This document shows positions 9,975 to 18,450 of a stretch of DNA of 64,000 nucleotides, piece by piece. The notes under the pieces were generated by a model. The model did no database searches. It saw only the letters and a program-made list of their open reading frames with translations, and was not told where the DNA came from. The stretch's first letter is position 1; each line of letters opens with the position of its first letter. Source of the DNA: Streptomyces globisporus (GTDB lineage: Bacteria > Actinomycetota > Actinomycetes > Streptomycetales > Streptomycetaceae); assembly GCA_014649555.1 (NCBI GenBank), contig BMTG01000003.1, positions 310,001-374,000 of the forward strand. Direction: 5' to 3'. Both the position numbers and the translations under genes were made by a program.

Positions 9975-9993
9975 TATACCCCCTAGCGGTATA
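9975..9993. promoter_or_regulatory. CsoR-type copper operator
   Basis: TATACCCCCTAGCGGTATA has perfect 6-bp arms around a C/G core. This matches the form of CsoR/RicR copper-repressor sites (AT-flanked run of C then run of G). It lies 80 bp before nuoA and overlaps a plausible -10 (TATAGG). No csoR gene is in the window, so the repressor would act in trans. Confidence 0.65.
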
Positions 9994-10073
9994 GGGTTAC
10001 GGGCGAGTGCCCAGTCCGTTGACGAGCACTCGATGCCAGCGACAACGCGACCGCAGAGGCAGGGGCTGAGCAG

Positions 10074-10433
10074 ATGCACACCTCCGACTGGCAGCCGGTG
10101 TTGCTGCTACTGGGAATCACTCTGGTGTCCGTTGCCCTGCTCTTTGGTGCCGCAGCGGCGGTGCGGGTTACCCGCGAACCACTCCAGGCCGTCGCGCCGT
10201 TCAGCGGAGGGTTAGGACCGACGGAGCACCCCTTCTCCAGATTTCATGTGCGCTGGTACCCGGTGACGTTGGTCTTCCTCGCGTTCGACATGGAGATGCT
10301 GTTCATGTACCCGTGGACACTGGTCGTGGGCGAGGTCGGCGTCACTGCCGTGGTGGAGATGTTCCTGTTCCTGGGCATCCTCATGGCCGCAGTGGCCTAT
10401 GCCTGGCGGGAAGGTGCCTTCCGATGGTCCTGA
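10074..10433 (+). CDS. nuoA: NADH-quinone oxidoreductase subunit A-like
   Basis: A 119-aa membrane subunit with three hydrophobic helices. The family landmark FDxE is present as FDMEMLFMYPW (residues 71-81). In ordinary NuoA/ND3 the loop after helix 1 carries an ECG motif whose Cys lies near the quinone cavity. Here that loop reads APFSGGLGPTEHPFSRF, so Glu and Cys are missing. ATG 10074 follows AGGGGCTGAGCAG. It is first in an eight-gene operon that lacks all NADH-dehydrogenase and Fe-S subunits. A CsoR-type palindrome 80 bp upstream suggests copper control. I am sure of the family; a canonical complex I role is doubtful. Confidence 0.85.
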   Translation: MHTSDWQPVLLLLGITLVSVALLFGAAAAVRVTREPLQAVAPFSGGLGPTEHPFSRFHVRWYPVTLVFLAFDMEMLFMYPWTLVVGEVGVTAVVEMFLFLGILMAAVAYAWREGAFRWS

Positions 10434-15519: not shown

Positions 15520-15526
15520 GCCCCCG

Positions 15527-17032
15527 GTGCTGTCCACCCTCGTCTTCGCCCCCACCGCCGTCGCGCTGCTCCTGCTCGCTCTTCCCCGCCGCACCCCCGC
15601 CAAGGTCATCCGCGGGATCTGGGTGGCCACTGCTGCCGGGCTGATGGCCGCCACGGTCATCCTGTGGGCCGGCTACGACCCCGGCGGCGGCATGCAGTAC
15701 GAAACGCGGGCCCGGTGGATTCCGAGCGCCGGCGTCGGCTACCACGTCGGCGTGGACGGACTGTCCCTGCCGATGCTGGCTCTGACGTGCGTGCTCTTCC
15801 TCGCCTGCGCGGTCTACGCGTGGCGTGAGGACCGGCGGGTCCGCGAGTTCGCGGCCCTGTTCCTGTTCCTGGAGACGACGTGCCTGGGCGTGTTCGTCTC
15901 CCTGGACCTGATCCTGTTCTTCGTCTTCTTCGACCTGTCCATCGTCGGCATGTACTTCGTCATCGCCGGCTGGGGACACAAGGACCGGGCCCGTGCGGCG
16001 CTGATGTTCTTCCTCTACACCTTCCTCGGCTCCCTGGCCCTGCTGCTCGGATTCATCGGCCTCTACCTCGCCGCTTCCCCCCACACCTTCGACATCGTCG
16101 ACCTCACCGCCGCCAACCCGCTGGCTGGGCGAGCCGGCTACGCGGGCCTGGTCCTGCTGGCCATCGGCATCGGGCTCGCGGTCAAGACACCCACAGTGCC
16201 GTTCCACACCTGGCTGCCGCTCGCTCACACCGAGGCTCCGGCCGCCGGTTCGGCGATCCTGGCCGGCGTGCTGCTGAAGATGGGCACCTACGGCTTCCTG
16301 CGCATCGCGATGCCGATACTCCCCGACGTCTGGCGCCAGTACGCGACCGTCGTGGTCATTCTCGGAGTCATCTGCATCCTCTACGGCGCCCTTGTCGCGC
16401 TGGCCCAGAGCGACTTCAAACGGATGATCGCCTACACCTCCGTCAATCACATGGGCTACATCATCCTCGCCATCGGCGCCGCAGCAGCGACCGCGGACAC
16501 CAGCCGCCAGGCCCAGTCCCTCGCCGTGACCGGAGCAGTGACCCAGATGGTCAGCCACGGCCTCCTCACCGGCGCCCTGTTCCTCCTGGCAGGTGCCCTC
16601 TACGAGCGCGGCCGCACCTACGACATGGACGCCTACTCCGGAATCGCGGCGAAGGCACCCGTGTTCACCGGCATGACCGCGATCGCCGCCTTCGCCTCTC
16701 TCGGCCTGCCCGGCTTCTCCGGCTTCATCGCCGAGTTCCAGATCTTCACCGGCAGCCTCGGGCCCCGGCCACTGGCCACCTCGTTGTCCGTGCTCGGCAT
16801 CCTGCTGACCGCCGGGCTCTTCCTGCGCGCCCTGCAGAAGATCTTCCTCGGACCGCTGCGGCTACCCGACGCCCCCGGCACCCCCCGGCCCTTCAGCGAT
16901 CTGCGCGCGCACGAGAACACGGCCGTCGTGCCACTGCTCGCCCTCGCCGTGGTGGTGGGCATCGTGCCCCGCTTCCTCCTCGACGTCATCGAACCCGCCT
17001 CCATCGCGGTACTGGAGCTGCTGGCCCGATGA
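15527..17032 (+). CDS. nuoM: NADH-quinone oxidoreductase subunit M-like
   Basis: A 501-aa antiporter-like membrane subunit with 14 predicted helices. KTPTVPFHTWLPLAHTEAPA and GVLLKMGTYGFLRI are the TM7-8 signature, and FKRMIAYTSVNHMGYIILAIG matches the family closely. At the TM5 site, where NuoM normally has a glutamate in FFE, this protein has FFDLSIVGMYFVIAGWG, an Asp. The change keeps a carboxylate but shortens it. GTG 15527 lies 7 bp after nuoL, and the stop overlaps the nuoN start (ATGA). Confidence 0.9.
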   Translation: MLSTLVFAPTAVALLLLALPRRTPAKVIRGIWVATAAGLMAATVILWAGYDPGGGMQYETRARWIPSAGVGYHVGVDGLSLPMLALTCVLFLACAVYAWREDRRVREFAALFLFLETTCLGVFVSLDLILFFVFFDLSIVGMYFVIAGWGHKDRARAALMFFLYTFLGSLALLLGFIGLYLAASPHTFDIVDLTAANPLAGRAGYAGLVLLAIGIGLAVKTPTVPFHTWLPLAHTEAPAAGSAILAGVLLKMGTYGFLRIAMPILPDVWRQYATVVVILGVICILYGALVALAQSDFKRMIAYTSVNHMGYIILAIGAAAATADTSRQAQSLAVTGAVTQMVSHGLLTGALFLLAGALYERGRTYDMDAYSGIAAKAPVFTGMTAIAAFASLGLPGFSGFIAEFQIFTGSLGPRPLATSLSVLGILLTAGLFLRALQKIFLGPLRLPDAPGTPRPFSDLRAHENTAVVPLLALAVVVGIVPRFLLDVIEPASIAVLELLAR

Positions 17033-18450
17033 CGGAGATGAACGAGAACCCCCTCGACATCCTCCCGGAGATCTTCCTGGTCGCGGGAGCCGTCCTCGGC
17101 CTGCTGCTCGGTTCCTGGCTGCCCCGCCACCGCCAGTGGATCACCGGGGCGCTGGCCGCCACCGCCTGCACCGCAGGGATCATCGCAGCCGCCGTCACCT
17201 CCCCGGGCCCCGCCGCCTCGACCTTCGGCGACGCCTACGCCCTGGATCCCCTGACGAACGCCGGCCGCATCATCATCCTCGGTGGCGGCCTGATCGTCCT
17301 CGCCCTCAGCCTGCGCCCCCTGCACGCCGACCCCCGCGAAGCCGAGTTCTACGTCCTCATCCAGCTCGCCCTGCTCGGCGCGATGGTGCTGGCCGGGGCG
17401 CAGGACCTTTTGCTCCTGGCCGCCGGATACCTCCTCGCCTCCATCCCCGCCTACACCCTCGCAGGGTTCCGCAAGGACGGACCGGGCACCGAAGCCGCAC
17501 TGAAGTACTACGTCGTCGGCGCCCTGCTAGGTGTCGTCATGCTCGCCGGAATCACCGTGCTCTACGCCACCGGACGCGCCACCAGCTACCTCGCCCTGGA
17601 CGGAGCCCTCGACGACACGCCGCAGGGGCTCCTCGCCGTGGGAACGCTGGGGCTCCTGGCCGGGCTGCTGTTCAAGGCCGGTGCCGTCCCCGCCCACTAC
17701 TGGATCCCCGACGCCGTCCAGGGCAGCGCCCCGCCGGCGGCAGCCCTGATCGCCACCCTCCCCAAGATCGGCGCGCTGGCAGCGCTGTTCCGTCTCGGCG
17801 CCGTCCCCCTCGACGCCGAACCGCTGCCATGGGCCGCACTGATCGCGGTACTCGCCGCGGCCTCGATGACCCTGGGCAACCTGGCCGCCTTCTTCCAGAG
17901 CGATGTCAAACGCCTGCTCGCGTACTCGACGATCAGCCAGGTCGGCTATCTCCTCATGGCGGTCGCCGTAGCCGCGGCCACCGGCCGGGCCCAATCCGCC
18001 CTGCTGTACTACCTCGCCGCCTACACGGTCACCAACCTCGGCGCGTTCGCCGTCGTCTGCGCCCTCCCCGGCGCAGCGCGCATCGACGACTACCGCGGCC
18101 TTGCCCGCCGGCGTCCGCTGCTGACCGCGAGCCTGGTGGTCTGCCTGCTCGGCCTCCTGGGCACCCCGCCCACCGCGGTTTTCGTCGGCAAGCTGGAGGT
18201 GTTCACCGCAACCATCGACGGCGGATACACCTGGCTCGCCGTCCTGGCCGCCGTCAACACCGTGGCATCCCTCTTCTATTACCTTCGCTGGATCATGCCC
18301 GCCCTCGCCCACAGCAGCCGCCCAACGCCCCCTCCCCGCGAGAGTCGCACCGCGCGCGCCGTCGCGTACACCTGCGCTGCTCTCTCTCTGGCCATAGGTG
18401 TAACCGCGGGTCCAGTCCTCGATCTGCTGTCCGGCCCTATGAGCCGATAG
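17029..18450 (+). CDS. nuoN: NADH-quinone oxidoreductase subunit N-like
   Basis: A 473-aa antiporter-like subunit with about 14 helices. GLLFKAGAVPAHYWIPDAVQ keeps the TM7 Lys and WxPD motif, and DVKRLLAYSTISQVGYLLMAV is the usual TM8 region. The TM5 position that carries Glu in ordinary NuoN (LELLSLPLY type) reads LLAAGYLLASIPAYTLAGF, with no acidic residue by my alignment. If right, this channel lacks its standard central glutamate. The start is ATG 17029 overlapping the nuoM stop; ATG 17038 is possible. It is the last gene of the operon, and no clear terminator hairpin follows. Confidence 0.88.
   Translation: MTEMNENPLDILPEIFLVAGAVLGLLLGSWLPRHRQWITGALAATACTAGIIAAAVTSPGPAASTFGDAYALDPLTNAGRIIILGGGLIVLALSLRPLHADPREAEFYVLIQLALLGAMVLAGAQDLLLLAAGYLLASIPAYTLAGFRKDGPGTEAALKYYVVGALLGVVMLAGITVLYATGRATSYLALDGALDDTPQGLLAVGTLGLLAGLLFKAGAVPAHYWIPDAVQGSAPPAAALIATLPKIGALAALFRLGAVPLDAEPLPWAALIAVLAAASMTLGNLAAFFQSDVKRLLAYSTISQVGYLLMAVAVAAATGRAQSALLYYLAAYTVTNLGAFAVVCALPGAARIDDYRGLARRRPLLTASLVVCLLGLLGTPPTAVFVGKLEVFTATIDGGYTWLAVLAAVNTVASLFYYLRWIMPALAHSSRPTPPPRESRTARAVAYTCAALSLAIGVTAGPVLDLLSGPMSR

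Follow-up and report, generated by a model that had tools for sequence, protein, structure and literature searches.

An extra, partial nuo operon, nuoAHJKLMN, has been described in marine actinomycetes and read as a proton pump that serves under seawater or osmotic stress (PMC3314556, PMC6002675, PMC6676996, PMC8622039). One of these descriptions places a hypothetical gene between nuoA and nuoH, giving the order nuoA-hyp-nuoHJKLMN (PMC6676996). Here we analyze the operon nuoA-X-nuoHJKLMN in a 64,000-nucleotide stretch of the 8.2 Mb genome of Streptomyces globisporus (assembly GCA_014649555.1, contig 3, positions 310001-374000), hereafter the window, where X denotes the second gene. Judged from its sequence, the operon looks like an ion pump made from the membrane half of complex I and rebuilt to handle copper. 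A preliminary description of this DNA had proposed a metal-linked, ion-translocating complex rather than a respiratory enzyme, and that proposal is favored by copper-type neighbors in two phyla, a copper-type operator box, the metal-binding domain HMBD within X of some relatives, invariant methionines in the A, J and K subunits, and the loss of the electron-handling parts. The same description had called the system undescribed. The gene order was in fact already in print, as "marine adaptation" nuo genes; the copper reading, however, did not turn up, and our searches of open-license papers (preprints lay outside the scope) showed none that links the partial nuo operon to copper.

Seven of the eight genes are assigned by Pfam and NCBIfam to NuoA, H, J, K, L, M and N, as first reported, and X is matched by neither database. 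The genes occupy positions 10074-18450 of the window on the forward strand, with neighbors overlapping or separated by no more than 18 bp (Table 1), and from this close same-strand layout we take them to be one operon. Contig 1 of the same genome holds two more such clusters, a complete nuo operon near 1125 k and a partial one (A, B, C, H and I-N) near 1064 k, which makes nuoA-X-nuoHJKLMN the third of the nuo type.

The electron-input module is missing from this cluster and from the neighborhood of its relatives. With E. coli NuoB, CD, E, F, G and I as queries, the stretches around 133 related loci (up to about 31 kb, some ended by contig ends; the window itself is longer) gave no peripheral-arm match except one weak NuoB hit (locus L109, E 7e-4), which is located inside X. 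Two loci that include the genome's complete nuo operon served as positive controls and matched strongly, with E down to 6e-126. The reported absence of NuoC, E, F, G and I thus holds throughout these stretches, and peripheral-arm genes just outside the operon in relatives, which the preliminary description had named as refuting its proposal, were sought at all 133 loci and not found.

What stands in place of NuoB and NuoD is X, a His-rich hybrid of the two, as profiles, the predicted model and the fold agree. The NuoB cysteines of the CC, GVC and PGCPPRP motifs are ligands of cluster N2. These motifs, present in the genome's own canonical NuoB, have no counterpart in the aligned X, whose only cysteines in the window (31, 307 and 412) are none of them invariant across the X family. 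Likewise, the NuoD motif GPQHPSTHG, which carries the quinone-loop histidine, aligns to GPALLDWPAG in X, and the loop histidine is gone. A VIA-align comparison gave no NuoB match for the N terminus of X, an absence that excludes nothing, as the profiles do detect the NuoB part; further matches to the predicted model of X are Mbs and the large subunit of FHL. The linker between the two halves carries at least six histidines within the 110 residues before the NuoD-part anchor in 98 of 121 X proteins (six proteins that have no anchor were left out). In some lineages, namely the Rubrobacter family and the genera Sulfitobacter, Paracoccus and Nitratireductor, the linker of X has an insertion of between one and three HMBD domains (PF19335; E for the whole protein down to 2e-41), and the protein matches PF00346 as well. 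Such HMBD-type genes were found at loci L113, L256, L253, L254 and L257, from the Rubrobacter family and Alphaproteobacteria.

Changes at the quinone end extend to NuoH and NuoA. NuoH has no PNRVGP motif, in agreement with the preliminary description, and of the two acids of its loop, the one at E. coli E218 is lost in all copies and the one at E216 in most; E135 is kept in 40/49 and E205 in 48/49. The ECG motif of the genome's own canonical NuoA is indeed gone here, but its absence is weak evidence because E. coli NuoA is also without it (ESG). Some of these losses bear on the possibility that the complex is a redox machine in which copper stands in for iron-sulfur clusters, bound copper cycling between Cu(I) and Cu(II) to drive pumping. 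Complex I ancestry would suit such a machine, as would methionine and histidine ligands able to bind copper. We nevertheless consider it highly unlikely, given that no peripheral-arm gene was found in the stretches around 133 loci (a search that did not extend to electron partners of other kinds), that the NuoD quinone-loop histidine is gone, and that two acids of the NuoH loop are lost.

The ion-pumping parts, on the other hand, are largely retained. NuoL keeps E132, K212, H237, K325 and K380 in 47/47 copies. NuoM has D136 in 42/45, K220 and K251 throughout, and E403 in 44/45; in a further set of seven records, position 136 is Glu in the four that are HMBD-type, and the rest of the pump residues agree. 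NuoN carries L135 and K216 in 40/46 each, K246 in 46/46 and K388 in 45/46, with the first lysine (K216) replaced by Glu in 6/46; the seven records have Leu or Val at 135 and all the lysines. The pump residues expected of K, L, M and N are therefore present, save the glutamate of the fifth transmembrane helix (TM5) of NuoN. Earlier statements that NuoK keeps both glutamates, that NuoL keeps its TM5 Glu and that NuoM has Asp agree with the alignments, while the statement that NuoN appears to have no pump residues is right for the TM5 Glu, now Leu, and wrong for the key lysines. With the electron motor gone and the ion subunits intact, the pump must be worked otherwise or run backwards.

Relatives of the operon occur on chromosomes and plasmids, in a survey that covered Actinomycetota and Pseudomonadota. 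X was found in 28/199 sampled Streptomyces genomes and, by profile search at E < 1e-9, in 25/396 genomes across the phylum, of which the source genome, G088 and 18 others were examined and five were left. At E 0.001 the same search matched 185/396 genomes, many of them weakly over positions about 41-83, and these matches look like the true NuoB of canonical complex I. X also occurs in 11 actinobacterial plasmid records, and J as a query matched 31 plasmid records, 15 of them from Pseudomonadota (Halomonas, Roseivivax, Sulfitobacter, Paracoccus, Acuticoccus, Nitratireductor and others). A scan for J motifs in one genome per species (84,980 species) gave at least 477 relatives confirmed by tblastn, although at E 1e-3 only, so that some may be ordinary NuoJ; the best 80 of them, all actinomycetes, form the set of named loci used below. 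All eight genes stand in the same order at 32/35 loci and at 75/80 named loci. In a NuoM tree of 33 rows, the 16 labeled members and a second Rubrobacter copy, which turned out to belong to the family, form one clade (support 100/99), outside which the nuo1 and nuo2 rows fall.

Individual copies show both decay and duplication. Cut or degraded copies were seen in Rhodococcus pRB29 (L005), in Ornithinimicrobium (L009) and at L059, L066, L067, L102, L105, L109, L116 and L117. In the broken copy on Rhodococcus oxybenzonivorans pRB29, A and X are annotated, H is cut short, J-L were not found, and pieces of M and N lie further along with three recombinase genes between. One Rubrobacter genome (G386) has two copies of the operon, one on contig 1 near 3845 k and one on a plasmid (L288, L256), both amid copper-type genes.

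A further mark of these operons is the methionine content of three membrane subunits. Mean methionine is 9.6% in J (3.3% in E. coli NuoJ, 2.1% in the genome's canonical subunit), 9.0% in K (5.0% and 5.1%) and 5.7% in A (3.4% and 2.7%), and in H, L, M and N it lies below that of both the E. coli and the canonical subunits. In J, M27, M60, M61, M65, M68, M72, M76, M85, M87 and M138, together with H89, are invariant in the 49 copies found through X, and the same letters stand in 80/80 named loci and in 7/7 further records, HMBD-type ones among them. The three sets overlap in part, and because the 80 loci were found by J motifs, that set gives no independent evidence for the residues near positions 27 and 60-68. 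E64 is conserved in 24/24 aligned sequences, 80/80 and 7/7, M77 in 48/49, and M61 aligns with the conserved Tyr59 of E. coli NuoJ. The predicted J monomer is middling (mean predicted local distance difference test score, pLDDT, 73; predicted template modeling score 0.50) and supports only one helix at 51-75, which holds M60-M72.

In K and A the methionines stand next to acids that complex I also has. K retains E35, E73, M29, M32 and M70 in 49/49 copies and M74 in 45/49; E73 is present in 78/80 named loci, and M31 varies in three of the seven further records. NuoA retains D/E72, E74, M75 and M78 in 52/52 copies and H58 in every copy checked, and the HMBD-type copies have Pro in place of H52. 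The E-channel of E. coli complex I lies between NuoN and the quinone cavity, and the TM1-2 loop of NuoA plugs a crevice among NuoD, NuoB and NuoH (PMC8357420). By alignment, His52 and His58 of NuoA fall in or just past this loop. On the cytoplasmic side, the TM3-4 loop of J (M77-H89) presumably lies along the quinone site as well.

Two other explanations must be weighed against these residues. One is that the methionines act as antioxidants or in packing and that the copper neighborhood reflects hitch-hiking on metal-resistance islands, which would fit the many copies on plasmids. Yet every one of these J sites has kept Met, and not Leu or Ile, in two phyla, the H, L, M and N subunits show no enrichment, and X itself bears HMBD in some lineages; we rank this as the least likely of the explanations considered. 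The other is a copper-gated cation/proton antiporter, in which copper on X and on the A, J and K methionine sites only switches on exchange through L, M and N and is not itself carried, guarding ion balance when copper damages the membrane. The antiporter lysines retained in L, M and N would serve such an exchange, and the His-rich linker and HMBD could be its sensors. A sensor, however, hardly needs a single subunit with ten invariant methionines along a transmembrane helix and its loop, and we find this explanation rather unlikely, although it comes next after the exporter proposed below.

Upstream of nuoA lies a CsoR-type operator, TATACCCCCTAGCGGTATA. The published consensus for Streptomyces CsoR is ATATACCCCTNAGGGGTATAT with TAC-N9-GTA (PMC3902906). 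The site at 9975-9993 matches 16 of the 18 specified positions in the inner 19 bases of this consensus and keeps TAC-N9-GTA, and the best score in random 350-bp control windows (n=4000) was 13, which upholds the box that the preliminary description had placed at the head of the operon. A genome-wide scan with a loosened pattern, allowing at most two mismatches, gave no place for the backward control and five for the pattern itself: before this operon, before a copZ-like gene, before a csoR-like gene, on contig 11, and at window position 22290. The genome's csoR and copZ genes (recognized by eye) thus carry the same kind of box. Across loci, a CsoR-like score of at least 12 was reached in 10/52 upstream regions, compared with 0.9% of random windows. 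The place at 22290-22308 is a near-palindrome with 2 mismatches to the loosened pattern; its neighbors are an MFS exporter gene (20849-22255, -) on one side and, on the other, a gene judged by eye to be TetR-type (22351-22965, +), and it may be the TetR-type regulator's own site.

Copper genes also accompany the operon. A strict marker (CopA, CopZ, CsoR, multicopper oxidase or DUF305, by tblastn) was present near 28/53 loci and in 2/40 random 13.5-kb stretches from relatives' genomes (Fisher 3e-7, for loci that are not independent), and near 51/80 named loci, from eleven named genera; the 80 overlap the 53 in part. The marker queries came from the tested flanks, so that a locus can match itself; a cluster had to occur at four or more loci to be chosen. 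When 528 flank proteins were clustered, 12 clusters were common to at least four of the 53 loci. Eight lie on the copper side (CopA-type ATPase at 14 loci, DUF305 at 12, multicopper oxidase at 8, CsoR at 8, BlaI at 7, M48/M56 at 6, a BNR protein at 5 and an HMA/CopZ protein at 5), and the remainder are ArsR (5), a methyltransferase (5), a dehydrogenase (4) and an ABC ATPase (4); the first nine were typed by Pfam through a representative and the last three by eye. Seven of the 15 Pseudomonadota plasmid records were inspected, and in six of them annotated CueR, heavy-metal ATPase, multicopper oxidase, CopB, CopD, cupredoxin or CusA-type RND genes adjoin the operon; in the seventh (Vreelandella, L252) short hypothetical genes were seen and no annotated copper gene. 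Conservation of the cluster with copper genes, which the preliminary description had named as part of the support to look for, is found in two phyla.

This neighborhood bears on the published reading, an extra proton or sodium pump for osmotic or marine adaptation with no role for copper. The extra nuoAHJKLMN genes of the marine strains cited above speak for it. Nonetheless, no gradient can be generated without electron or other input, and of the 12 flank clusters, eight are copper-type or recurrent companions, one is ArsR and three are other enzymes, and none looks osmotic; for the present operon we hold this reading to be scarcely probable. The flanks also bear on copper uptake or delivery, in which the methionine path would work inward or load periplasmic or membrane cuproenzymes such as the adjacent multicopper oxidase. 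Multicopper oxidase genes are in the flanks of 9/53 and 13/80 loci, and sequence cannot give the direction of transport. The neighbors, however, are mostly resistance genes (CopA, CsoR, CueR, CopZ), and the presence of CsoR boxes implies that excess copper is the inducer; such a role appears unlikely to us.

Taken together, we regard it as very probable that the complex is copper-linked. The conserved methionines, histidines and HMBD domains, the copper-type operator and the copper neighbors argue for a proton-driven Cu(I) exporter, that is, a non-redox complex derived from complex I that couples ion flux to Cu(I), and we give this proposal an even chance of being right. In its fullest form, to which we hold with a little less than even confidence, the quinone site has become a Cu(I) site and the E-channel region a Met/Glu copper path, and the resulting proton-driven Cu(I) pump would be a new class of transporter, spread by plasmids across Actinomycetota and Pseudomonadota. 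Both the direction of transport and its coupling are what we infer.

Hypothetically, copper would replace electrons as the working partner of the complex I membrane arm. On the cytoplasmic side, the X linker or CopZ would hand Cu(I) to what was once the quinone site, from where it would enter a methionine-lined path between TM3 of J, K and A. The ion would then be expelled while protons run inward through L, M and N, with the complex I machinery operating in reverse. Proton-motive force would in this way drive Cu(I) export, making the complex a partner to the ATP-driven CopA.

Several observations count against the proposed exporter. The predicted vertical metal path would be a new use of the E-channel, which in complex I runs along the membrane. 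Fewer than four histidines precede the anchor in 19 of the 121 X proteins. A helix-face test on TM3 of J gave a weak p of 0.016 for seven chosen positions, E64 among them, and p 0.41 for the eight conserved methionines, with M74 and M77 in and E64 out. No CsoR-like score of 12 or more was found in 42/52 upstream regions, and no strict copper marker in the examined stretch at 25/53 and 29/80 loci; the marker set, moreover, was picked after the flanks had been viewed. Finally, the marine or osmotic reading is backed by growth comparisons of strains, which include no mutants in the accessible part of that paper (PMC6676996).

Coordinates of the operon and its parts are collected in Table 1. Several further features deserve mention. 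The F510_1955/BNR lipoprotein family occurs near 24/80 operons, BlaI near 12 and M56 near 10; these may be copper-linked families without a known role, and BlaI/M56 and F510_1955 were kept out of the strict count for want of an established tie to copper. A metal-type island at 36334-46248 of the window comprises an F510_1955-like BNR lipoprotein, a BlaI and M48/M56 pair, a P-type ATPase with an SPC motif, an ArsR regulator, DUF6153 and a full DUF305 protein, and several of these kinds also flank relatives' operons. The P-type ATPase (42457-44505) was considered as a copper partner and rejected as CopA, its motif being SPC and not CPC. Two genes that share weak NucS_C/DUF5655-type matches (8356-9243 and 48911-49906) flank the region, hinting at the edge of a duplicated or mobile island. 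Elsewhere in the genome, a NuoD-like gene (contig 13, 46.2-47.3 k) is 33% identical to E. coli NuoCD, and E. coli NuoA, B, H and J-N queries gave no match in the 20-kb stretch around it.

Table 1. Features of the nuoA-X-nuoHJKLMN operon and adjoining DNA (positions in the window)
Feature	Position	Strand	Basis
CsoR-type operator TATACCCCCTAGCGGTATA	9975..9993	.	80 bp upstream of NuoA start
NuoA-like subunit	10074..10433	+	Pfam PF00507 E 4e-25
NuoA H52..H58	10227..10247	+	alignments
NuoA D72-M73-E74-M75..M78, retained acids with conserved Met	10287..10307	+	alignments
Gene X, hybrid of NuoB-like part, His-rich linker and NuoD-like part, 483 aa	10424..11875	+	profile, model, fold
X NuoB-like part, about aa 1-103 (profile match 44-84), NuoB Cys motifs lost	10424..10732	+
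X His-rich disordered linker, aa 118-224	10775..11095	+	pLDDT under 50
X NuoD-like domain (shortened), aa 231-473	11114..11842	+
NuoH-like subunit, PNRVGP absent, E135 and E205 kept	11868..12770	+	PF00146 E 2e-48
NuoJ-like subunit, 10% Met	12789..13352	+	PF00499; PDB NuoJ/NdhG profile E 7e-17
J Met stretch M60 M61 E64 M65 M68 M72 M76 M77	12966..13019	+	predicted helix 51-75
J loop M85, M87, H89	13041..13055	+	alignments
NuoK-like subunit, 11% Met	13349..13654	+	PF00420
K M29, M31, M32 beside E35	13433..13453	+	alignments
K M70, E73, M74	13556..13570	+	alignments
NuoL-like antiporter subunit, pump residues kept	13651..15519	+	PF00361 E 4e-49
NuoM-like antiporter subunit, TM5 Glu to Asp	15527..17032	+	TIGR01972 E 4e-148
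NuoN-like antiporter subunit, TM5 Glu to Leu, key Lys kept	17029..18450	+	TIGR01770 E 5e-97
DUF305 fragment, apparently a remnant	18559..18777	-	profile positions 81-107 of 151; 23.2 bits, under Pfam cut-off of 27

If the proposed exporter is real, the coupling machinery of complex I has no need of electrons and can drive a metal ion or be driven by one. How events at the quinone site reach the antiporter subunits, a question of long standing, could then be tested in a non-redox system. A new copper-handling system would also be recognized in many bacteria of soil and sea, on plasmids as well as chromosomes, which would correct the present annotation as "NADH-quinone oxidoreductase" or "marine adaptation".

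Among known systems, the "marine adaptation" partial nuo operons of Salinispora, Kocuria and Streptomyces have the same gene order, a likeness that comes from the published text and not from compared sequences (PMC6676996). In the accessible text of those papers X is a hypothetical protein, and copper box, HMBD, methionine sites and copper neighbors are not discussed. The energy-converting hydrogenases and their kin (Mbh, Mbs, FHL, Ehr) likewise tie a complex I-type membrane module to other chemistry, but they mostly keep metal-cofactor or iron-sulfur partners, whereas the X family has no conserved cysteine and no CxxC-type ligands for a metal cluster. CusA-type RND and CopA-type exporters share the operon's neighborhood, and CusA relays Cu(I) through methionines in the membrane; these are unrelated protein families, and Pfam shows no ATPase or RND domain in the operon. 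The Mrp cation/proton antiporter shares L/M/N-type subunits without redox input, but family profiles rank nuo L, M and N above Mrp, and this operon also has H and A. Respiratory complex I shares the homologous A, H, J, K, L, M and N in canonical order, and the operon keeps both its antiporter lysines and, in A and K, its E-channel acids. Unlike complex I, the operon described here has no E, F, G, C or I nearby, its NuoB and NuoD are fused without Cys motifs or quinone-loop histidine, its NuoH has lost PNRVGP, and its A, J and K subunits have gained methionines.

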